NCBI RefSeq assembly: GCF_000002865.3
Contig: NW_001865057.1
Location: 375,071 to 439,070, forward strand
Origin: Monosiga brevicollis MX1
Lineage: Eukaryota > Opisthokonta > Choanoflagellata > Craspedida > Salpingoecidae
Length of the DNA: 64,000 nt
Direction: 5' to 3'
Shown here: positions 6,564 through 56,074 of the stretch, piece by piece
Numbering within the stretch: the stretch's first letter is position 1
Layout of the letters: the number at the start of each line of letters is the position of its first letter
Translations under genes and position numbers: made by a program
The notes under the pieces: generated by a model
Databases searched by the model: none
Seen by the model: the letters and a program-made list of their open reading frames with translations, nothing else
Told to the model about the DNA's origin: nothing

Positions 6564-6910
6564 GTTTAGGTCTTTAGGAGGTGAGGTGTAAGCACGCTCA
6601 GAGATGTTCAGAATCGCCAGCCAATAAGCGGCGGCAGCTGATAGCAAAACATAAGAGTGGATAATTGACATCATGACAACCGTGCACAACTGTCTTGGTC
6701 TTGATGGGATGAATGCCTTCTTTAAGTGTCTTCTTTAAGTGTGTGCTTCATGCTGTAGTGGTGAGAAGAGAAGAGGATTGTTGGACAATATTTTTTTATT
6801 TTCAATTTGTTTGGTTTTTTTTTTTTTTTTGGTTCACAAACCAAGTCATCAAGATGTGAATCACCGCCAGCGGTCAGGTGGGAAGGAAGAAAAAGAGTTC
6901 TCAAAGACAT
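6564..6910. other. Tail-to-tail intergenic spacer
   Basis: Short 3' spacer between the convergent DUF2827 gene and HSP70. It holds a T-rich tract near 6795-6832 but no coding sequence that I can support. Presumably both 3' untranslated regions lie here. Confidence 0.5.
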
Positions 6911-9019
6911 TTAATCAACCTCCTCGATGGTGGGGCCCTGGTTGCCAGAGGCATCACCAGCAGGAGCACCGCCGGGCATGCCGCCGGGCATGCCACCGGC
7001 ACCCTCGGGCATGCCACCAGCCTGGTAGAGCTTGCTGACAATGGGAGAGCAGACACCCTCGAGCTCCTTCTGCTGGTGCTCGAACTCCTCCTTCTCGGCC
7101 GACTGGTTGGCGTCGAGCCAGGCGAGGACCTCGCTGCACTTGTCGACCACGGACTTCTGCTCCTCCTCGGAGACCTTGCCCTTGACCTTGTCATCGTCAA
7201 AGGTAGACTTCATGTTGTAGGCGTACGACTCGAGGGCGTTCTTGGCGGCAATCTTCTCCTTGACAGCCTCATCCTCGTTCTTGTACTTCTCAGCCTCGGC
7301 CACCATGCGCTCAATGTCGTCGGCAGAGAGACGGCCCTTGTCGTTGGTGATGGTGATCTTGTTGCTCTTGCCAGTCGACTTGTCGGCGGCCGAGACGTTC
7401 AGGATACCGTTGGCGTCAATGTCAAAGGTGACCTCAATCTGGGGCACACCACGGGGCGCGGGGGGGATGCCCGAGAGCTCGAACTTGCCCAGCATGTTGT
7501 TGTCCTTGGTCATGGCACGCTCACCCTCGAAGACCTGGATAAGCACACCAGGCTGGTTGTCCGAGTAGGTGGTGAAGGTCTGAGTCTGCTTGGTGGGGAT
7601 GGTGGTGTTGCGCTTGATAAGGGCGGTCATGACACCACCGGCGGTCTCCAGACCCATGGAGAGGGGGGCAACGTCGAGCAGGAGCAGGTCCTGAACGGCC
7701 TCCGACTTGTCACCGGAGAGGATGGCGGCCTGAACGGCGGCACCGTAGGCAACAGCCTCATCGGGGTTGATGCTCTTGTTCAGCTCCTTGCCGTTGAAAA
7801 AGTCCTGGAGCAGCTTCTGGACCTTGGGGATACGAGTGGAGCCACCGACAAGGACAACCTCATCAATGGTGGACTTGTCCAGCTTGGCATCGCGGAGGGC
7901 CTTCTCGACGGGGTCGAGGGTGCCGCGGAAGAGATCGGCGCACAGGTCCTCGAAGCGAGCACGGGTGATGCTGGTGTAAAAGTCAATACCCTCGAAGAGA
8001 GAGTCAATCTCAACGTTGGCCTGGGCCGAGGCGGAGAGGGTGCGCTTGGCGCGCTCGCAAGCGGTGCGCAGGCGACGGAGGGCGCGCTTGTTGGAGGTGA
8101 TGTCCTTCTTGTGCTTGCGCTTGAACTCGGTCACAAAGTGGTTGACGAGACGGTTGTCAAAGTCCTCACCGCCAAGATGGGTGTCACCGGCGGTCGACTT
8201 GACCTCGAAGATGCCATCATCGATTGAGAGGACGGACACATCGAAGGTACCGCCACCCAGGTCGAAGATGAGCACATGGGCCTCACCCTGGCTCTTCTTA
8301 TCGAGACCGTAGGCAATGGCGGCAGCAGTGGGCTCGTTGATGATACGGAGCACGTTCAGGCCGGCAATGGTACCAGCATCCTTGGTGGCCTGGCGCTGGC
8401 TGTCGTTGAAGTAAGCGGGGACGGTGACGACGGCGTCCTTGACCTCGGTACCGAGGTAGGCCTCGGCAATCTCGCGCATCTTGACGAGGACCATGGAGCT
8501 AATCTCCTCAGGGAAGAACTGCTTGGTCTCACCCTTGTACTCAACCTCGAGCTTGGGACGAGAGTCAACGTTGATGACGTTGAAAGGCCAGTGCTTCATG
8601 TCGCTCTGGACGGCGGCGTCATCGAACTTGCGGCCGATAAGGCGCTTGGCATCGAAGATGGTGTTGGTGGGGTTCATGGCCACCTGGTTCTTGGCGGCGT
8701 CACCAATGAGACGCTCAGAGTCGGTAAAGGCGACATAGCTGGGCGTGGTGCGGTTGCCCTGGTCGTTGGCAATAATCTCGACCTTGCCGTGCTGGAACAC
8801 GCCAACGCACGAGTAGGTCTAAAAAGAGGGTACCGAGCAGAGAGAAGCGAAGCAAAAAGGGTGAGTGTGTCGCAAGCCGCCAGTGAAGCCAGTGAACAAC
8901 ACGTCATTCACACAACACCCATGGCATGTGTCTTCAAGTGTTTGTTCAAGAAGTTGCAAAAAAAGGCAGTCCGACAACAAGTGACGTACCGTGCCAAGAT
9001 CAATACCGATGGCGGGCAT
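6911..9019 (-). CDS. HSP70: Cytosolic heat shock protein 70
   Basis: ATP-dependent chaperone, about 645 residues in two exons. Exon 1 (9019-8990) encodes [11 protein letters not shown] 171-base intron with GT-AG ends follows, and exon 2 (8818-6911) starts [12 protein letters not shown] and runs uninterrupted to the stop. The nucleotide-binding domain shows [23 protein letters not shown] and the GIDLGTTYS phosphate loop restored across the splice. The substrate-binding domain follows, with a GGMPGG-rich tail. The C-terminal EEVD, which docks TPR co-chaperones, marks the cytosolic/nuclear isoform and not an ER or mitochondrial one. The gene is strongly codon-biased and has only one intron while neighbours have many, both common for highly induced HSP70 genes. 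It is divergent from RICTOR. Confidence 0.98.
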
Positions 9020-9411
9020 GGTGATGTTGTTGAAGAAGAAGTAAAGCTAAAAGAGTAGACACTACTGGGATGATAGCTGATGAAGCTAGCAAGAAAATGC
9101 CACTGCCCCGGCCAGCGCCGCGCCATCCAAGCGGTCGGGAGCCGTTTGGCCACGTCCACATCGTGCCACCACGTTATTGAACGTTGAGCAGGCTAAAGTT
9201 AGTAAGCAAGCCCTTACCTTATTGGCTTATTCGCCTTTTGCTTCCAAGGGTTGCTAGACGGTTCCTTTGGTTTCCACATGATGCTTACGATAACAGGGGG
9301 TGCACGTGGCAACAAGTGCCCCAGCCGCCTATGACAGCACAGCACGCAAGCATAGGTGCAGAGCAAAGGGTGTAAGGGGAGCCATGTGACTCGAAAGCAA
9401 CAGAAGGTTCC

Positions 9412-24744: not shown

Positions 24745-27700
24745 ATGGCTGCTCAATGTGCACGCGTAACCGTTGCCAAGGCCGTCAGCATGGTGCCTGT
24801 GGCCACCGTGCTAACGTTGCTTGCGTTGTGGGCGGCAGCCCTCCCAGTCCGAGCTGATGAGAAGTACTGCCTCTTAACAAGCCCCAACACAACATATGGG
24901 CTCAATCCCGATGCTTGTGAGGAATGCCCCGAGAGTGAGATCGCTCGTTTTTGCTTTTTGAGCGAGGCGTTTTCCTTGAGCTCGGGCCTGGTTTTTTCAC
25001 ATGGGGCCATTGCGCGTAGATGCCACGACTGAGCCTAAAGGGGAGTTTCGGGAATGTGTTTGTGGTAAGTGACAATGGAGGAACGCGAATGCAGCTGGGC
25101 ATGCAGGCCAGCTCTCAGATCCACGCATCGGCTCGCACAGACACAGAATACTGGCGTTCAGGCGGCAATTGCACGCAAAAAACAGCGTGCAAACTAGGCC
25201 AGTATCAACAGCAAGCACCGACCACTACTTCAGATCGATCTTGTGATTGGTGCACACAAGGTTGCCGCATGCCACGCCTCGGCTGCGTGTTGGGAAAAGC
25301 ACCTTCTTACAAATGACTTTGTATCTTTATGTGTGTTTAAAGGCAAATTCGAGAATGCTACCAACAACGAGGCCGAGGAGTGTCGGCAGACCGTGTCGTT
25401 TTGCGCGGCAGGCCAATACGAGCATGAGGCCCCAACGGTATCAACGGATCGTGTTTGCTCCGAATGCCTCAACGGTTAGACAGGGATTGTCACTCGCTGC
25501 CTCGCGCTGCTTGGCTTCCTTGGCATCATCATCATCAATGTCTTGTCCGTTGATGCGAGCTAGGTACATACCAGGCTGCTTCAAATGACGCTATCGGTGC
25601 CTGTTCAAATTGGACTTTGTGTTTGCCTGGCCAATTTGTGAGCCGCCCGGGATCGACATCACAAGATCGCGTCTGCGAGCAGTGTCCCGCCAGTGAGTTG
25701 CGCGGCTGTGTCAAGGAACTTTTTAGTTTTGAGAGCTCGGCAGATGTTGACAGGAGATGCCTCTCATTTATCTATTGGCGCTGTGCCGTGTTTCCTAGAC
25801 GAGTATCAATCAGATTATAACGCAGAACATTGCAAATCGTGCCCAAAAGGTTTTAATTCAACTGTGGGAGCTGAGGCTTGCAAGGGTGAGTCCTGGTATA
25901 TATGTATCAGAAGCAGGCCCGCCATGACATTGACCAGGTCCTCCATTGGTTTTAGATGAGACTCCACCTGTCCTCGTATCCTCATATACGGAAAAGGAGT
26001 TCGAGGCGGCTTTTTACGAGCCCCCCTCTGTAAACGCCACCGACACGGCATGGCCCTTTGAATTATCAGTCAATCATACTGGGACTGTGGATGGTGGCAA
26101 GTAATTTGCAAGTGGCGCCGATGACCCCTAGCAAGGCATCCGGATTGAATGTGACCTCACCTTGCATGTTTGGTCATGGCACATCTTACGGTGGGGGCTA
26201 GGCAAGCCTGGAGTATATTTCTTGAATTTTAGCACGGTGGATGCGAGCAATAACGCGGCCTGGTTGGTCGTGACCGTCAAGATAACAGACCCAATCAAAC
26301 CCCGGCTTGAGCTTCTGGGTGACAATCCCTGGGTGCAAGAAGCGGCTGTAACAGGCATCCAGGATCCCGGTGCCGCAGTGAAGGATTCATCCGAATCAAA
26401 CCTCAAAGACGACTGGAGCAGTAACTTCACGGCAATCAACCTTCTGCAACCAGGAAACTATTCAGTGACGTACAAGCAGACGGGATCTGATCGGCAGGGC
26501 CTCAGCGCCGATCCCGTGACTCGACTCGTGATGCTAAGGGACACGATTGCACCGGTATGGCGATTTCACTGTCTACTTGTATGAATGGCTGCTTAAACTT
26601 GGTTATGCGACGTCATCGTCACGACTCGGCTTGCAGAAAAGGCCCACAGAGAAAACGGGCACGTCCGTCGCATTTGTTGTCATAAGCCACTCCTTGCTCA
26701 TACAGCACGACTGCCGCTTGACCTGTGCTATGCTGTAGACCATCAAACTGGCGCCCAACGTGAATCGCCCAGACCGTCAATGGAGGGACACGGCTCAAGA
26801 TATCATTTTCTTGCAGGCCACCTTTCCCTTTGATGAGCCTGGCTATTCAGCTTTTGACGCTGTTAATGGCTGGCTGAACTCCACGGTCACAGTCACCAAC
26901 CCGATCCAGTCGTGCAACCTGCTTCAGAAGTGTGCAATCAACTACACCGTACCGGATGCGGCGAGAAATGTGGGCCATGCCCGTCGCCTAATATCGATTG
27001 TCGATACCCTTCCACCAAACATCAACATGCACGGGCCATCTGTTGTTGCTTTAGAGGCAGGCGCAGTCTATGATGACCTCGGAGCGACGGCCCATGACTT
27101 GCTGAAGGGCAATGTCGCTGTCGACAGCTCACCCAAAATCATCAAAGCGCCTGATCCGGACACGCCACTGCCCTTCAATGTGACACAAACCTACAGCGCT
27201 ACAGACGATTACGACAACGTCGCAACCGTACAGCGTGTCGTGCAGGTGGTAGACACGACGGCACCAACCATCAAGCTTAATGCAATGCGCACACTTGAGG
27301 CCGGGCATGACTATGTGCTGCCCTTTGGCGACTGGATCAACGTGACGGACAACTATCTCTTCAATGTGCATGAGCGCGTCATTGACAACGTGTCACATGC
27401 TCCCCGCATGCACATCATCACGCCGCTGGAGGTAACTGTGTTGATCGAGTGCACGGACAATAACGGAAACACGGCGCGAAGCTTGACGACGGTGACGCTC
27501 GTAGACACCACGCCGCCGGTCATTACAGCCCCCGACATCTTTCTAGAGGGTGGTACGGCAACAGAAGCCCCGTACCCAAATATTTCTGCCATTGATCTGG
27601 TGGACGGAGACCTCACAGCCAATCTGGAAACGACGCTGGTTGCGGCAAACATTTCATCAGAGCCAGCGCCACATGTCTGTGGCATTGGTGCTAGCCGGCA

Positions 27701-30700
27701 GACGGACCCGGCATCCCGTGCCTTCCAGGCAGCTCGCTGCTTTTCGAGCGCCGCTGCAGTGGTCTCAACAGCACCGGCAGGTTCAGTCTTCCTACTGAGG
27801 CATCATAGTCAAGATGCGGTAGGTAATGTTCGGCTGCAGACGCGTCGCGTGACCATTCGGGACCAATTGCCGCCCAGGCTGGACATCAAGGGTTCCCTCG
27901 CCACGACAGTTGAATATCAGACCACCGGTACGCTCCTCTTTGCCGACGCAGGCACCAATGCGACAGATGCCCTGGATGGAGATATCGCCAGCTGGGTATG
28001 TGTGTCAGTGGAGCGCTACAGACCTTCGGGAATGAGCATGCCAGGCAGCGGTGGACAGACTGACACAAGTGAAGAGCCAGCCACATTGACAGAGGTCGTC
28101 TTGACACGAGGACAACTGAATGAGGTGGCGCCTCACAACTGGAGCGACTTTTCCATCGGCGAGCGGGGCCAACCCCTTGCAACAGGCGGACTGGTCATGC
28201 TTCTCCGCAACGCAACACCCGGTACACTTTACGTTGTGATTTACAGTGTGCAAGATGGTGCTGGCCACCAAGCCAGTGCCAGTCGGCAGTATCTGGTAGT
28301 GGACACGGTGGCGCCCACACTTCGGCTTTTGGGTGGCGCGAAAGTCCACATACCTTTTGGCACGGAGTATCGCGAGCTTGGGGTAACAGCCATGGATACT
28401 TCAGAACACCTTCTTCGGGTGCGGGTGGTTGAAGTCAATGTGATAAACGTGAGGCGTGCAGCGTCCTATGTCCTGGAGTACGTGGCACGGGACAGGTACA
28501 ACAACACTGCGCGAATACAGCGAACGGTGGTTGTGGACGATTTTGTGCTGCCAAACTTGGAGGAGCAGGTGGAATTGCGGGTACGAAGCAGCCGGCCGCC
28601 TTCTTTGTTGGACGCAAATGAAGTGGAGCGGAACTTGCAGGCTTTCTTGCAGCCACTGGGCTTTGTCAGCTTGCTGACATTGCGCTTGGCTAGCGATACA
28701 GAGGTGCAGTACAATCAGCTGCCCAGTGTGCGGGCAGCTGTTGCTACTGCGGTCGGGGATGCCGGGCTTGAGTCTGCGCCCGGTGCAAGGCATCTCTTGG
28801 CCGAGTACAGCTTGGTGATCAATTGTGCCGTGCGAAGCAATGCCACGCTGGCTTATATGCCCGCGGCAGCGGTGTTAGCAGCGGTGGGCGAAGATGAAAG
28901 CGCTTGGTCGGGCGCTTTGGGAACGGGGTCACTTGAAGTGCAAAGCGCTCGTGACGCGTCGGCAGACAAGGCTCCCCAGAGTGTCTCTACGGGTCTGGTG
29001 GTGGGGATCTGTGTGACCATGGTCTGTGTTGTGGCGGCGATGCTGGTTGTGATGCGACGCCGGCAGCGACAATCAGTAGGGCATCAATTTAACGGAAAGG
29101 CGTCCGAGCCAAGCACGCAAGGCATGGCAATGATTGACGTTGATGGTATGTATACAACAGCACTGGAGCCGAGCAGCGGTCGAACCTCAATGGGAAGCGG
29201 CCGTGCGGGTATGGTGGCTGCATTGGCCAGCTATAATGCCGGCGAGTCGTCAGCCATGCACGAAACGACCTTGGATGGCGAGACGTACGACAACCCACGC
29301 TCCCATCGGCCAGCGCAACAGCAGACGATCTCTTCCATGTATGCAGTTCCAGACGACCCGAGCATGACATCCACGTTTGCTTTTGAGACGTATGACACGC
29401 CCAACGCCATGGAGGACGCAATCTCCAATCCAGTCCTGTACGATCAGCCCAACGCTTCGGATGCAGGCGTGTATGTCCCTGACACATACGATCAGCCCAA
29501 CGCTTCGGATGCAGGCGTGTATGTCCCTGACACATACGATCAGCCCAACGCTTCGAATGCAGGCGTGTATGCCCCCGACACATACGACCAGCCCAACGCT
29601 TCGGGTGCAGGCGTGTATGTCCCCGACACATACGATCAGCCCAACGCAACCAGCTCTCTGACACCAGAAACGTACGATGGGGTAGATGTCAAGCCTCAGG
29701 AAGAGGCCGAGGCCGTGGATTCGTCTGACACCCCTCCGGTGGCACGGCAAGCTGTTGGTTCGTCCGAGGAACATTTTGCCGGTTTTGGAAATGATCAAGT
29801 CGACCCTTCTCTGGCGGACGAGCCAGCACCAACGGCAAGGCTAGCGAAAGTGGAAAAATCGGTTGGAGCTCTGCCTCCCCGAACTTTGAAGGTACCAGCG
29901 GCGCCAGCACCTGGCGCCCATTTTGAAGAAGCACCCGCGCCTGCTGCGACTTCTGCCAAGAGCGCAGAGGCCGTGCGCGGCCGTGCCATTTCCATAGGTA
30001 GCAGTGCACCAGCACAGGTAGAATCGGCCAAGAATAACCAGGCTGGGCCGCGGGCACTGCGCAGCCACAGTATTGGGATATCAAGCCGTGAGGGCTTGCA
30101 GGAGAAGGCCGTGCCTCTGGCTGGCGCACGGCGTCAAGACGGTGGTGCGGTGGGCATGACTGGAGGTTCGCTGCTGGCGGAGGCGCGATTGCATCCCATG
30201 TATCATGACCACTGCTCACGTGAGTCAGCAGAAGCTGCCTTGGGCCATCTTGACGACGGCAGCTTTATTCTTCGGTACAGTGAGAACACGGCCACTGTGG
30301 TGCTGACGGTTCGCAGGCGCAACACTTTTGCGCATCACAAGTTACGTGTCCTACCGGAGGGAACGGCCTGTATCAATGACACGGCCGTGGGGCGCTTCGA
30401 TGACTTGAATGAACTCTTGATGGTGTTCAGTGAACCAAATGGTTACATCGAAGGCGTACTGCGGATGAGCTTGGAACATACGCGCCCGGGGGTGGGTGCT
30501 TCAGGGGTGGCCAAATCGGTGTTGGGTGGAAAGCCAGATCTACGCTCGGGCTCCACCTTGTTGGATCAACCCTGGTTTCATGGCGGAATCGGGCGCCAGG
30601 AAAGTGAGGCGCGCCTGCGTGACTTTGGAGAGGAAGGCGCATTTTTAGTACGGCGGAAGGGGCCCAGCTCCTTTGCGATTAGCGTACTAACGGACGGCAA

Positions 30701-30872
30701 ATTGGTGCACCACCTCCTCCGTTTGCGTGGCGATGTGGTGCAGTTTAACGACTTGGTTGTACCCGGGGTCTCGACAATCGAGGCTGCAATTGCGCGGCTG
30801 TGCCAGGATGGGGCGGCTGTGCTTGTTCATCGCTTGTGCACGCCCTGCCCAGAACCGGACACCATGGCGTGA
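24745..30872 (+). CDS. Receptor-like membrane protein with Ig-like repeats, tyrosine repeats and two SH2 domains
   Basis: Signal peptide (MVPVATVLTLLALWAAALP within the first 40 residues), then several small exons with Cys-rich units of the GxYxxxxPT..TSDRxC type (25160-25900). Next come five or more Ig-like DUF5011/HYR-type repeats, each opening near a DTxxPxI motif (about 26280-28540), mostly in one very long exon from about 26740. The transmembrane helix (GLVVGICVTMVCVVAAMLVV) is at 28996-29055, followed by basic residues. The tail holds YDNP, YAVP, YDTP and a 16-residue YDQP/YVPD repeat (29439-29678). Two SH2 domains follow at 30198-30480 and 30571-30840, both with the phosphotyrosine-binding arginine (FILRYSE; FLVRRKG). 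There is no kinase or phosphatase domain. It probably relays tyrosine phosphorylation. The splice pattern of the 5' third is only partly resolved. Confidence 0.85.
29439..29678 (+). repeat. 48-base in-frame tandem repeat (YDQP phosphotyrosine array)
   Basis: Four full 48-base units start at 29439, 29487, 29535 and 29583, and a fifth, diverging unit starts at 29631. Each encodes YDQPNAS.AGVY.PDT, so every unit carries two tyrosines (YDQP and YVPD/YAPD). Units differ by only a few bases, so expansion is recent. Confidence 0.95.
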
Positions 30873-41249: not shown

Positions 41250-42335
41250 ATGGCGGTGCCGGTCGTTGATCTGGCGGCGGTGACGGGGCCAGCGGCACGT
41301 GACCTGCCGCTGGCTGAATTGGATTCGGAGGCAGTGCGTGAGGTGGCCGAGGCGCTGGGACGGGCTTGTCGACATGTAGGATTCTTTTATGTGCGCAATC
41401 ATGGCGTGTCCGAGGCCTTGCTCTCAGAGTTGCAGGCCATGAGTCGCGACTTTTTTGCTCAACCCCTCGCGGACAAGATGCGGCTGGATATGCGTCAGGG
41501 TGGACGTGCATGGCGGGGTTACTTCCCGGTGGGTGACGAACTGACTTCAGGCAAGCCAGACATCAAGGAGGGTCTGTACTTTGGGGCGGAGCTGTCAGAG
41601 ACCCATCCGGCCGTGGTAGCTGGTCGCCCCATTCATGGTCGCAACCAGTTTGCTGATGAGCGCATGCGCCGCGTTGTGCTGGAATATCTGGAGGCCATGC
41701 TGGCCCTAGGTCAGCGCATCATGGCGCTGCTGGCGTTGAGTCTGGGCCTCGAGGCCGATTTCTTTCAGCGATCCTACACGCGCGAACCCACCCCGCTCTT
41801 CCGCATCTTCAACTACCCACGGCCGGAGAGCTTCAACTACGATGGCGATCGCGAAGCCCTTTGGGGAGTTGGCGAGCACACCGATTACGGCCTGCTGACC
41901 ATTCTGCTGCAGGATGAGTGCGGAGGGCTGCAGGTCAAGACTCGCACCGGCTGGCAGGCGGCCCCGCCCCTGCCCGGTACCTTTGTGTGTAACATAGGCG
42001 ACATGCTCGAACGTATCACGGGCGGCTACTTTTGCTCGACCCCGCATCGCGTTCGCAACGCCGCTGGCCGAGATCGCCTCTCCTTCCCCTTTTTCTTCGA
42101 CCCCAGCTGGGAAGCCGAGATTCGACCCTTGCCCAATGTGCGCCTGCTTGCCGAAGAGGCTGCTCGAACACAGGAATCGGACGAGCCAGATGCTAGGGCC
42201 CAACGATGGGATCAGGCAAACGTCGTCCAAGACGAAATTGGCGCCTATGGTGATTATCTCACACGCAAGGTATCAAAGTGCTTCCCCGACCTCTTCGCCT
42301 CTGTGCAGTCCCGCCCCGTGGCCACAACCCCCTGA
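41250..42335 (+). CDS. 2-oxoglutarate/Fe(II) oxygenase, isopenicillin N synthase-like, intronless
   Basis: Single open frame of 361 codons with no intron, unlike nearly all neighbours. The N-terminal DIOX_N domain shows VPVVDLAAV, HVGFFYVRNHGVS and SRDFFAQPLADKMRL. The middle has GYFPVGDE and KPDIKEGLYFG. The catalytic domain carries FRIFNYP, the iron-binding HxD in GEHTDYGLLTILLQDE, VCNIGDMLERITGG, the distal histidine in TPHRV, and the 2-oxoglutarate-binding RxS in RDRLSFPFFFDPSW. All metal and co-substrate residues are present, so the enzyme should be active. The substrate is unknown. Family members occur in bacteria, algae, fungi and plants. The absence of introns is consistent with fairly recent lateral gain or retroposition. 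Confidence 0.93.
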   Translation: MAVPVVDLAAVTGPAARDLPLAELDSEAVREVAEALGRACRHVGFFYVRNHGVSEALLSELQAMSRDFFAQPLADKMRLDMRQGGRAWRGYFPVGDELTSGKPDIKEGLYFGAELSETHPAVVAGRPIHGRNQFADERMRRVVLEYLEAMLALGQRIMALLALSLGLEADFFQRSYTREPTPLFRIFNYPRPESFNYDGDREALWGVGEHTDYGLLTILLQDECGGLQVKTRTGWQAAPPLPGTFVCNIGDMLERITGGYFCSTPHRVRNAAGRDRLSFPFFFDPSWEAEIRPLPNVRLLAEEAARTQESDEPDARAQRWDQANVVQDEIGAYGDYLTRKVSKCFPDLFASVQSRPVATTP

Positions 42336-53633: not shown

Positions 53634-56074
53634 ATGGACACCACGGCGACTGGCACGACCAGCATAACCAACAACACCACCAGCACGACCGCCTCCAACA
53701 ACAAGAACAAGAACAACAAGAAGAACATTGGTCGCCTCCAAACACACACCAAGCGTCACAACACAAGCAACGCCGCCGGCGCCATCGCAGACCCGAAGAG
53801 CAAGCAAGGTCAACCCCGACGAGGTCGTGGTCACAGCCCTGGTCGTGGTCGTGGGCGTGGTGCTGCTTCACTTGATCAGCCCGCTGCCACCAGCTCCCAG
53901 CAAGCGCAACCGTCCACACGGAATCGAGGTGGCGGTCGCCATCGTCGTCGCCGCCCTCGCAAGGATCGCCTTCGTGCCCACGCACTTCCCTCCCACTCGC
54001 CCACTGCCCCTGGTCACTTGAGCTTGCCGCTGCCATTTGTCCCCTCGGCCATTGAGCTCCCTGCACCCCTCCCTGCCATCAACACAAGCAAACACAGCAT
54101 CATCTCCGCGCCAGACTCGGCGAGTGAGCCGGCTGCCATTTCACCCAACCCGACATCGTCGCCATCGTCGCTGCCTTCGGCCGCTGCCGTTGATCCCCTC
54201 AATCATCTGACCGATCTTGCGACCGCCGTCGCCGACATTGACACCGACAGTGACCCGACCGCCAACATGTCCTCGGAGGCGACCACTCAGCAGCGACAAA
54301 TCGACAATGCCTGCGTCATCGTGCCCGGTGCGCACTTGGGTCCCCGCTCCCCCGTCACCCCTCTCAACACGGAAGCTCGTGCCAATCGTGCTTGCATTTT
54401 GTCTCACGTCCCTGCTGCTTGCTGAACGCTCCCGCAGACCGCCTCTACTTTGCCACCGTTCGCCAATTGCCCCCGTCCACACCAGAGGCCTTCTTCTTCA
54501 CCGTCGATTCTGAATTTAAATACGAAGCGTTCGTGTCCCGTCCTGCTACACACGCGCCCCGCAACTCGGCTCCATCTCCCCAGCCTTTTGGCCTCACCAT
54601 GTGCGGGTTGGCTCGATTTCTTCTCGGACCTGCTCCCTGTCGTTTTGTTTAGGTTTTGTGCCGATTTTGGCCCCTTCAACCTGAGCACGAGTGTGCGCTT
54701 CTGCCGCAAACTCTGGCAATTCCTCGAGGTGCGGCTCATGGCCCAAGCCGATCCAAGCCCCCGCTCCTCTGCCACCGCCTGCCGATCCTGTTCTTGGCAT
54801 GTGGCATTCATATCCGCTTCTTCGCCCCCTCATTTTGCGCACCCCCCTCCCGTTCTCCGCGTTCTCCTTCTCTCCAGCAACCGCAACACAAAGATCAGCG
54901 CATCTACTTTTGCACCGGCACGGACATGCAGGTTCGCAGCAACGCTGCTGCCCTCATTGGCCTCTTCGCCGTCTGGTGTCTGAACATGACAGATGAGCAG
55001 GCCATTGCTTGCCTCGACACGGCCAAACCGCCCTTTGCACCCTTTCGCGACGCCTCGTATGCCCCAGTACTCTACAAGCTCCACGTGCGATACGTCATCT
55101 CAGGCGCCTACCAAGCCCTGCTCAACGGGTTTATCGACGTCCATACTTTTGATCTTGACACGTACGACCATTTCGAACGAGTGGAAAACGGTGACTTTAC
55201 CACCATCATCCCCAACAAATTTATCGCCCTGGCTGGTCCCCACAATACCCGCCACGTCGATGACGGCTACACCCACCTCGCCCCCGAAAACCTCTTCGAA
55301 CCCTTCCGCCGCCTGGGTGTCACGGACATTGTCCGCCTCAACAAGAAAATGTATGACCGTACCAAGTTTACCCAGGCTGGCTTTGCCCACCACGATCTCT
55401 TCTTCATTGACGGCACCTGCCCCCCGCCCGCCATTCTGGAGAGCTTTCTCGAAATCACCGAAAAGTGCACCGGCACGGCCGTGGTCCACTGCAAGGCCGG
55501 CCTCGGCCGCACCGGCTCCCTCATCGGCTGCTACATGATGAAGCACTATCGTTTCAACGCCCCCGAAACCATCGCCTGGCTCCGCATTGCCCGCCCCGGC
55601 TCCGTCATCGGCCCCCAGCAAACCTACCTGGTCAACCACCAAGCTGACATGTGGCTCGCCTCCCCACCCACCGCGAAGCGCAAAGGCGAGGCAGATCGCC
55701 CTCTCGCAGCCATCACCGACCTTGCCGCCTTCCACATTGTCACCTCCGCGTCCAAAGATGAAAATGCTACCGCACCGACCACCCCAACCAAAGATGCCGG
55801 CCACACCAGCCTCTCGGCCGTCGCTCGCGCCCTTAGCGACATTATCCCCTCCATCTTCCCCGATGACTCAGCCTCGGCCCTTGAATCGGCACACACTGGT
55901 GCTGCCAACTACATTCCCGAAAGTGAACGCGGCTCGTCCTCCCATGATCACCTTTCACAAGGTGACATCTTGACGCGCCGCAAAGCGCAGGCTCAACACA
56001 AGAATCAACCGCTGCCCCCATCACGGACGTGCCGCCCCACCACCTATGAACCCAGTTCCTTTGAGACCTTTTGA
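53634..56074 (+). CDS. CDC14: CDC14-type dual-specificity phosphatase
   Basis: Start chosen at 53634 (MDTTATGTTSITNN); an in-frame upstream ATG at 53544 is possible. The first exon encodes about 230 low-complexity residues: Asn/Lys-rich, then an RG-rich stretch (RRGRGHSPGRGRGRG), then Ser/Pro/Ala-rich. The CDC14 core follows: DRLYFATVRQLPPSTP (54432), YEAF joined to CADFGPFNLSTSVRFCRKL, TGTDMQVRSNAAALIGLFAV, PPFAPFRDASYAP (CDC14 has PYLPFRDAS). The catalytic domain in the last long exon includes NKFIALAGPH, DIVRLNKKMYD, HHDLFFIDGTCPP and the active site VHCKAGLGRTGSLIGCYMMK near 55483-55540, with ETIAWLRIARPGSVIGPQQ after it. The tail is Ser/Pro-rich to 56074. The enzyme opposes CDK phosphorylation at mitotic exit and at centrosomes or cilia. 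Confidence 0.95.

Follow-up and report, generated by a model that had tools for sequence, protein, structure and literature searches.

What might a receptor do that carries both the substrates and the readers of tyrosine phosphorylation, and no kinase? The question is raised by a gene in the choanoflagellate Monosiga brevicollis MX1, found at positions 24745 to 30872, forward strand, of a 64,000-nucleotide stretch – hereafter the window – that corresponds to C38:375071-439070 (C38 being contig NW_001865057.1) within the 39.5 Mb genome. In animals, one receptor tyrosine kinase usually unites the ligand-binding part, the kinase and the docking sites, or else a receptor that lacks a kinase works with a cytosolic one; in this unicellular organism, closely related to animals, a family of receptors resembles substrate and reader but not the writer. 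We put the chances at about even that the product of the window gene is a kinase-less type I docking co-receptor, similar to p130Cas, that is phosphorylated in trans by a kinase from another gene.

The gene is real, and the limits given for it in an initial annotation (24745-30872) are borne out: a main exon with an open frame of 1377 codons follows a set of short predicted upstream exons. The interval 26739-30869 is free of stops for all 1377 codons, whereas 200 base-by-base shuffles of this 7 kb gave no run longer than 335, and the predicted splice model, with seven introns, gives a product of 1760 residues. Exon boundaries upstream of 26739 are predictions, and the intron inside predicted exons 6-7, near 26.1-26.2 kb, has two splice options (26094-26201 or 26101-26232). 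The Ig-like repeats belong to PF16403, which we take to be DUF5011 under a newer name. The features, in window coordinates, are as follows.

24745..24934, + strand: predicted exon 1, with the ATG, a signal-peptide-like hydrophobic segment and the first Cys residues (predicted boundary, GTGAGA donor)
25162..25885, + strand: predicted exons 2-5 (25162-25260, 25343-25474, 25564-25692, 25754-25885), Cys-rich repeats (TNFR_c6 match; boundaries predicted)
25956..26554, + strand: predicted exons 6-7, first HYR/DUF5011-type Ig-like repeats (PF16403, E 3.1e-7)
26739..30872, + strand: main exon, 1377 codons, stop at 30870-30872 (open frame)
27021..27248 (C38:402091-402318), + strand: PF16403 (DUF5011-type) Ig-like repeat (Pfam)
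28323..28535 (C38:403393-403605), + strand: PF16403 Ig-like repeat, best match (Pfam)
28530..28961, + strand: membrane-proximal extracellular domain, fold unassigned (alignment of paralogues)
28992..29054, + strand: transmembrane helix, RRR after it (hydropathy)
29055..30197, + strand: cytoplasmic tail, with 15 Tyr between 29151 and 29675
29439..29647, + strand: 48-bp tandem repeat, 4.4 copies, 95% match, unit YDQPNASDAGVYVPDT, containing five of the eight YxxP sites
30201..30425, + strand: SH2 domain 1 (Pfam), FLVR Arg at 30273-30275
30573..30842, + strand: SH2 domain 2 (Pfam match 30573-30713; C-terminal limit approximate, from paralogue alignment), FLVR Arg at 30651-30653

Pfam matches and hydropathy, applied to the predicted splice model, give the order signal-peptide-like start, Cys-rich part, Ig-like repeats, helix, Tyr-rich tail, SH2, SH2; the kinase-less layout that had been named from the letters of the DNA is thereby confirmed. 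TNFR_c6 has one match in the spliced N-terminus (E 3.2e-9, scanned on the alternative sixth intron). The sole strong hydrophobic helix, LVVGICVTMVCVVAAMLVV, spans 21 residues at residue 1135 of the splice model and is followed by MRRR. A Pfam scan at E up to 1 found no kinase domain in the frame – the sole additional entry was a sub-threshold DUF3147 – and PF07714 is absent from the window among the matches listed.

The window protein is one of a family. Searched against its own genome (tblastn) it gave 31 matches at E 0.001, and at least five kinase-less receptors combine the ectodomain, a helix, a Tyr-rich tail and tandem SH2 domains: the window gene, C12 (L029), C47 minus-strand (L030), C47 plus-strand (L031) and C55 (L032). 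An ectodomain of this kind is also present on C41 and C21, in receptors with a single SH2 domain each (that of C21 is cut at the locus edge). On C33, two near-identical HYR loci (L015, L017) about 14 kb apart encode an ectodomain, a helix and a Tyr-containing tail; the genome-wide SH2 profile matches list none on that contig. Further PF16403 loci on C17, C23, C28, C30, C34, C35, C37 and C51 were read in part, so these family counts are lower bounds. Judging by SH2 and Ig matches on one strand, C30 may hold another member.

Could the arrangement be an artefact – a merged pair of genes, or a decaying paralogue? We find this scarcely credible. The 1377-codon frame is continuous and holds ectodomain, helix, tail and both SH2 domains in a single unbroken stretch of genome. 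Three paralogues keep the identical order in unbroken frames of their own (1345, 1385 and 798 codons); the fourth paralogue, on C55, is interrupted by a 300-base assembly gap between tail and SH2 domains. Trees of the ectodomain and of the SH2 domains are also without conflict: each groups C12 and C47 minus-strand with 100% support, and support for the deeper nodes is low (40-77%).

Both readers appear intact. In all five tandem-SH2 members, and in both domains, the alignment shows the Arg of the FLVR strand and the betaD His to be invariant, which bears out the retained binding arginines noted earlier; among the conserved pocket positions of SH2 domains, the names assigned are, as we understand them, alphaA2 Arg, betaB5 Arg and betaD4 His. 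The two domains are thus apparently competent to bind phosphotyrosine. The Pfam match to the second is partial (profile 1-49 of 77), and a single-sequence fold prediction of the window's tandem SH2 has a mean pLDDT (predicted local distance difference test) of 37.5, too low to be of use.

The candidate substrates lie in the tail. Fifteen tyrosines occur in the 377 residues of the tail; eight lie in strict YxxP sites, of which seven are YDxP and six YDxPNA, and there are four YVPD/YAPD sites besides. The initial annotation had spoken of more than ten YxxP-like tyrosines, a figure that holds once the YVPD/YAPD sites are included (12) but not for strict YxxP. None of 2000 tail shuffles (mean 1.3) reaches eight YxxP; these eight are nonetheless not independent, because the 48-bp tandem repeat contains five of them. 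Tandem repeats of phosphotyrosine motifs differ between the window gene and two paralogues, with units of 48, 39 and 114 bp.

The motif itself is concentrated in the family. A degenerate DNA pattern for YDxPNA has 25 matches in the genome, as against 5 for the reversed pattern, and 17 of the 25 fall in four HYR receptors with SH2 domains (window 6, C47 minus-strand 5, C41 4, C12 2); the remaining eight are single hits. The YxxP count of C12 and that of C47 minus-strand are reached by none of 2000 shuffles, those of C41, C47 plus-strand and C55 by 2, 27 and 38 of 2000, respectively. Each of the five tandem-SH2 members has at least one YDxP site. Together with the invariant pocket residues, this suggests that both parts – docking sites and readers – are probably used.

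We propose that the Cys-rich/Ig-like ectodomain would bind a ligand or a neighbouring surface protein and so place the receptor beside a tyrosine kinase encoded by a separate gene. The most likely partner would be a receptor tyrosine kinase whose ectodomain is related or the same, or else a kinase of Src/Abl type. The partner kinase would phosphorylate the repeated YDxPNA (YxxP) sites, and the phosphorylated YDxP sites would recruit Crk-type SH2-SH3 adaptors, in the manner of the p130Cas/BCAR1 substrate domain of animals. Through its tandem SH2 the receptor would stay bound to phosphorylated partners, either siblings or the kinase receptor, which would keep the tail near the kinase and cluster receptors. 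The proposal starts from what is observed: the anatomy, the intact SH2 pocket residues, YDxPNA in four receptors of the family, and an ectodomain shared by the C55 receptor and a kinase, described below. From these we infer the phosphorylation, the recruitment of Crk, the SH2 ligands and the clustering.

Published measurements bear on two of these steps. In the available text of PMC5043372 the SH2 domain of M. brevicollis Crka1 bound pYDVP peptides in isothermal titration calorimetry, and the paper speaks of low affinity per site. The kinase RTKC8, according to the part of PMC10263333 at hand, prefers Asp after Tyr, which the YDxP sites match, and a hydrophobic residue before it. Three 15-residue RTKC8 peptides of that paper match letter for letter within 0.83 kb of one locus of the genome (L036), which identifies the genome as that of M. 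brevicollis.

A rather different use of the same parts was suggested by the initial annotation: a self-assembling platform that, after phosphorylation by a separate kinase, binds itself in cis or crosslinks its neighbours in trans. In the trans form considered here, the SH2 pair would bind YDQP and YVPD sites of neighbouring receptors and build a network without an adaptor. It is true that one chain holds both substrates and readers, and that SYK/ZAP-70 is the top match among solved structures for a profile built from the five tandem-SH2 members. There is, moreover, the spacing of the repeats: in the window gene Tyr-to-Tyr steps of 11 residues alternate with 5, in C47 minus-strand steps of 12 alternate with 26, and C12 has steps of 13. 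Steps of 11-13 residues resemble the tyrosine spacing of the immunoreceptor tyrosine-based activation motifs read by the tandem SH2 of Syk/ZAP-70. They are a hint only; as proof of self-binding we rejected them, since the likeness comes from just three repeat arrays. The SYK match, for its part, is ordinary SH2 similarity that implies no common specificity, and SH2 specificity is not readable from sequence. Against self-assembly, too, the single-SH2 relative on C41 bears the same YDQPNA motif, and Crka is a measured reader of pYDxP in M. brevicollis (PMC5043372, in the text available). We consider a network of this kind unlikely.

The anatomy is also compatible with a tandem SH2 that folds onto its own phosphorylated tail as an intramolecular clasp, favoured by the high effective concentration in cis, or with a negative regulator – a kinase-less decoy that competes with effectors, as SH2 domains without a catalytic domain can do. 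Two readers would nevertheless face many sites and most of these would stay free, and we hold such a role to be improbable.

How far does the combination of helix and SH2 reach? Genome-wide, a profile search gave 114 SH2 matches, and nine further SH2 loci were read at 3 kb, a non-random set (eight picked because their frames are long, and L047 because it has two SH2 matches). A transmembrane helix, judged by hydropathy, lies ahead of SH2 in four of the nine – three of cadherin type, and one of TNFR_c6 type with two SH2 domains – so that kinase-less transmembrane SH2 proteins form a wider class in this genome. The three cadherin-SH2 loci have a single SH2 domain each. At L041 (C54:138500-141500) a frame of 2987 residues comes to its end; it has TNFR-type repeats, a helix and tandem SH2, and represents another receptor type that looks kinase-less. 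L042 and L043 (C34 and C55) are similar cadherin-transmembrane-SH2 loci with identical transmembrane sequence, possibly a recent duplication.

These cadherin-SH2 genes, at three loci, are one reason to ask whether the window protein is an adhesion or endocytic receptor whose SH2 pair would merely tether it to phosphorylated cytoskeletal or sorting proteins, the tail being secondary. The other is NPx[YF], a known sorting motif, which occurs within 75 residues past the helix in six of eight kinase-less HYR receptors, in the C54 receptor and in both cadherin types examined (the count omits C3 (L027), where the helix is doubtful, and L017 and L043, near copies of L015 and L042). The window gene, however, is without NPx[YF], and the retention and amplification of YDxPNA in four receptors suggests that the tail matters; we regard the adhesion or endocytic role as quite improbable. 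The phosphotyrosine-binding (PTB) domain of M. brevicollis HMTK1 bound a TNFTNPVpYATLG peptide (PMC3082566, in the part available), so that some siblings may recruit a PTB kinase. We discarded NPxY docking of such a kinase as the mechanism for the window gene, where the motif is missing.

If the kinase comes from another gene, is there a candidate? A connection is seen for a sibling, between the C55 receptor (L032) and a receptor kinase gene, L033, which lies on C38 about 290 kb downstream of the window gene. The two have 4214 bp in common at 97.7% identity, introns included; upstream of this block the match continues at 93% over 3.4 kb (600 bp of it from the first stretch), for a total of about 7.0 kb. 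The block is located as follows.

L032:1-4236 and L033:1-4213, with L034 from 205 and L035 from 196 (C55/C38): duplicated block of ~7 kb

By eye, the block also contains part of the neighbouring upstream gene. Identity ends at L033:4213. The junction is confined to 16 bp some 25 residues ahead of the helix, and the frame stays open across it; beyond this point the C55 copy enters SH2-receptor sequence and the C38 copy kinase sequence. From L033:4229 the C38 gene aligns with two receptor kinases, one on C15 and a near copy of this on C20 (78% over 670 bp, then 69% over 723 bp), the ectodomains of which differ from that of C38 and are, by eye, EGF-like. The C38 kinase retains GNGAFG, HRDLAARN, DFG and APE, and has relatives in the genome on C15, C20, C51, C41 and C46. 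At a second kinase locus, C51, a PF16403 repeat also lies upstream on the same strand.

Two doubts about the C38 gene were considered. A misassembled chimera was rejected because there is no N in 6.9 kb, the frame is open over the junction, and divergence is 2.3% on one side versus 22% on the other; the locus is near the contig end (703 of 706 kb), and the judgement was made from the assembly, not from reads. Assignment of the kinase to RTKC was also rejected: its best 60 solved matches are of EGFR, FGFR, RET and ABL type, and 8E4T, that of RTKC8, is not among them. As a separate observation, the receptor kinase loci on C15 and C20 (L049, L050) are 99.2% identical over 3.35 kb on their different contigs.

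The shared ectodomain seems to be maintained in both genes. Over the 693 codons common to C55 and C38 the ratio of non-synonymous to synonymous substitution rates (dN/dS) is 0.27, and 26 of 60 changes are non-synonymous as compared with about 44 expected under neutrality (P 8e-7); both copies appear, from these counts, to be under constraint. The synonymous rate (dS) is 0.04 in the 5′ half of the block and 0.09 in the 3′ half, and gene conversion may have reset part of it. Identity and constraint together imply that nearly one ectodomain serves a kinase receptor and an SH2 receptor. The C38 receptor kinase likewise has the membrane-proximal domain (28530-28961) that all five tandem-SH2 members possess. 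A sequence-based search found no solved relative of this domain; a SEA-like fold was entertained from the order of strands and helices by eye, found no support in that search and is not claimed. In its alignment, five of six members have Arg-rich RR stretches mid-domain, the window gene being the exception.

A more far-reaching version of the co-receptor model, which we advance tentatively, is that writer (the kinase) and docking/reader part (phosphotyrosine tail and tandem SH2) are placed on different receptors, which take their ectodomains from a common, interchangeable pool, with one ligand joining both: receptor tyrosine kinase signalling split over two receptors. If this were true, the C55/C38 pair would be a recent example, an SH2 receptor and a kinase with almost identical ectodomains. 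The shared ectodomain makes a question testable: have docking receptors and receptor kinases evolved by swapping ectodomains, such that one signal reaches both?

Several observations weigh against the co-receptor model or its extension. The twin concerns C55 and C38, not the window gene, whose ectodomain has 29-34% identity to those of C55 and the C38 kinase, and searches with the window and C12 proteins revealed no kinase twin for the other four tandem-SH2 members. Exact YDxPNA was not found in C47 plus-strand or C55, which have YDxP variants only. The C21 tail is rich in tyrosines but not enriched in YxxP, its count being reached in 1690 of 2000 shuffles; that of C33 is unexceptional (377 of 2000). 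Six of the seven YDxP sites in the window tail are without the hydrophobic residue before Tyr that RTKC8 prefers (PMC10263333, in the part available). Finally, no NPx[YF] was found in the 75 juxtamembrane residues past the helix in the window gene, C41 or the C38 kinase receptor; its absence from the first two means that kinase recruitment may differ there.

As to novelty, the initial annotation set the architecture apart from known animal receptors. It is not new: PMC5043372 (2016) drew it for A9V449 of M. brevicollis. The available text of that paper describes A9V449 as having a Cys-rich domain and DUF5011, and PTSG_05573 of Salpingoeca rosetta as having the same layout without the Cys-rich repeats; both are transmembrane, with extracellular DUF5011, cytosolic YxxP repeats and C-terminal SH2-like domain(s), and no kinase is mentioned there. 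The window protein has the same set, namely a helix with cytosolic YxxP repeats, a C-terminal SH2 pair and a Cys-rich, DUF5011-containing ectodomain. Its Cys-rich part matches TNFR_c6, whereas a growth-factor-receptor Cys-rich domain is named for A9V449. A9V449 and the window gene may be one and the same, or else likely paralogues, the two being likened by description and not by sequence. YxxP transmembrane proteins were proposed in the same paper as Crk partners that dock it on their YxxP repeats. As far as our searches of the open-access literature show, three things are new: a tandem-SH2 family with five members or more, the signature YDxPNA, and an ectodomain common to an SH2 receptor and a receptor kinase; surveys from 2008 may hold part of this.

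Comparison with better known systems places the protein between several of them. SYK and ZAP-70, which are cytosolic kinases, have tandem SH2 domains in common with it – the best profile match among solved structures, as noted – and a kinase after these that it lacks. BCAR1/p130Cas, with its partners CRK/CRKL, offers the closest parallel to the tail: both proteins have clustered YxxP sites that should recruit Crk-type SH2 domains. BCAR1 is cytosolic, with SH3 and FAT-like domains, whereas the window protein is transmembrane with SH2 domains; Pfam finds in it neither an N-terminal SH3 nor a C-terminal FAT-like domain, the C-terminus being SH2. As a docking co-receptor it would represent a naturally membrane-bound version of the substrate domain of p130Cas, one whose motif, YDxPNA, is defined. 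Vertebrate DCBLD1 and DCBLD2 are likewise transmembrane with intracellular YxxP; they are receptors without SH2 domains, and differ from the window protein in their ectodomain (discoidin, CUB, LCCL). As scaffolds they bind the SH2 domain of CRKL through YxxP after phosphorylation by Fyn/Abl (PMC6029619, in the part available). The M. brevicollis RTKB2 and RTKC receptors resemble the window protein in their Cys-rich and HYR ectodomain, single helix and several tail tyrosines (PMC3584944 and PMC10263333, as far as available); they carry a kinase domain, in place of which the window protein has SH2 domains. Gene model 11339 of M. brevicollis is a transmembrane protein that combines cadherin and SH2 (PMC3082566, available part); it has cytoplasmic SH2 in common with the window protein and differs in its cadherin ectodomain.

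Elsewhere in the window, Pfam matches NAD-GH (PF10712) at 6878-8227 and 8276-9058 (+ strand), largely opposite a complete HSP70 frame at 6911-8800 (- strand, E 9e-251); the NAD-GH matches presumably reflect a spurious family derived from the antisense of HSP70. A 2OG-Fe(II) dioxygenase with a DIOX_N domain lies at 41250-42335 (+ strand, Pfam), and a CDC14-like dual-specificity phosphatase, with DSPn and DSPc domains, at 54656-56074 (+ strand, Pfam).

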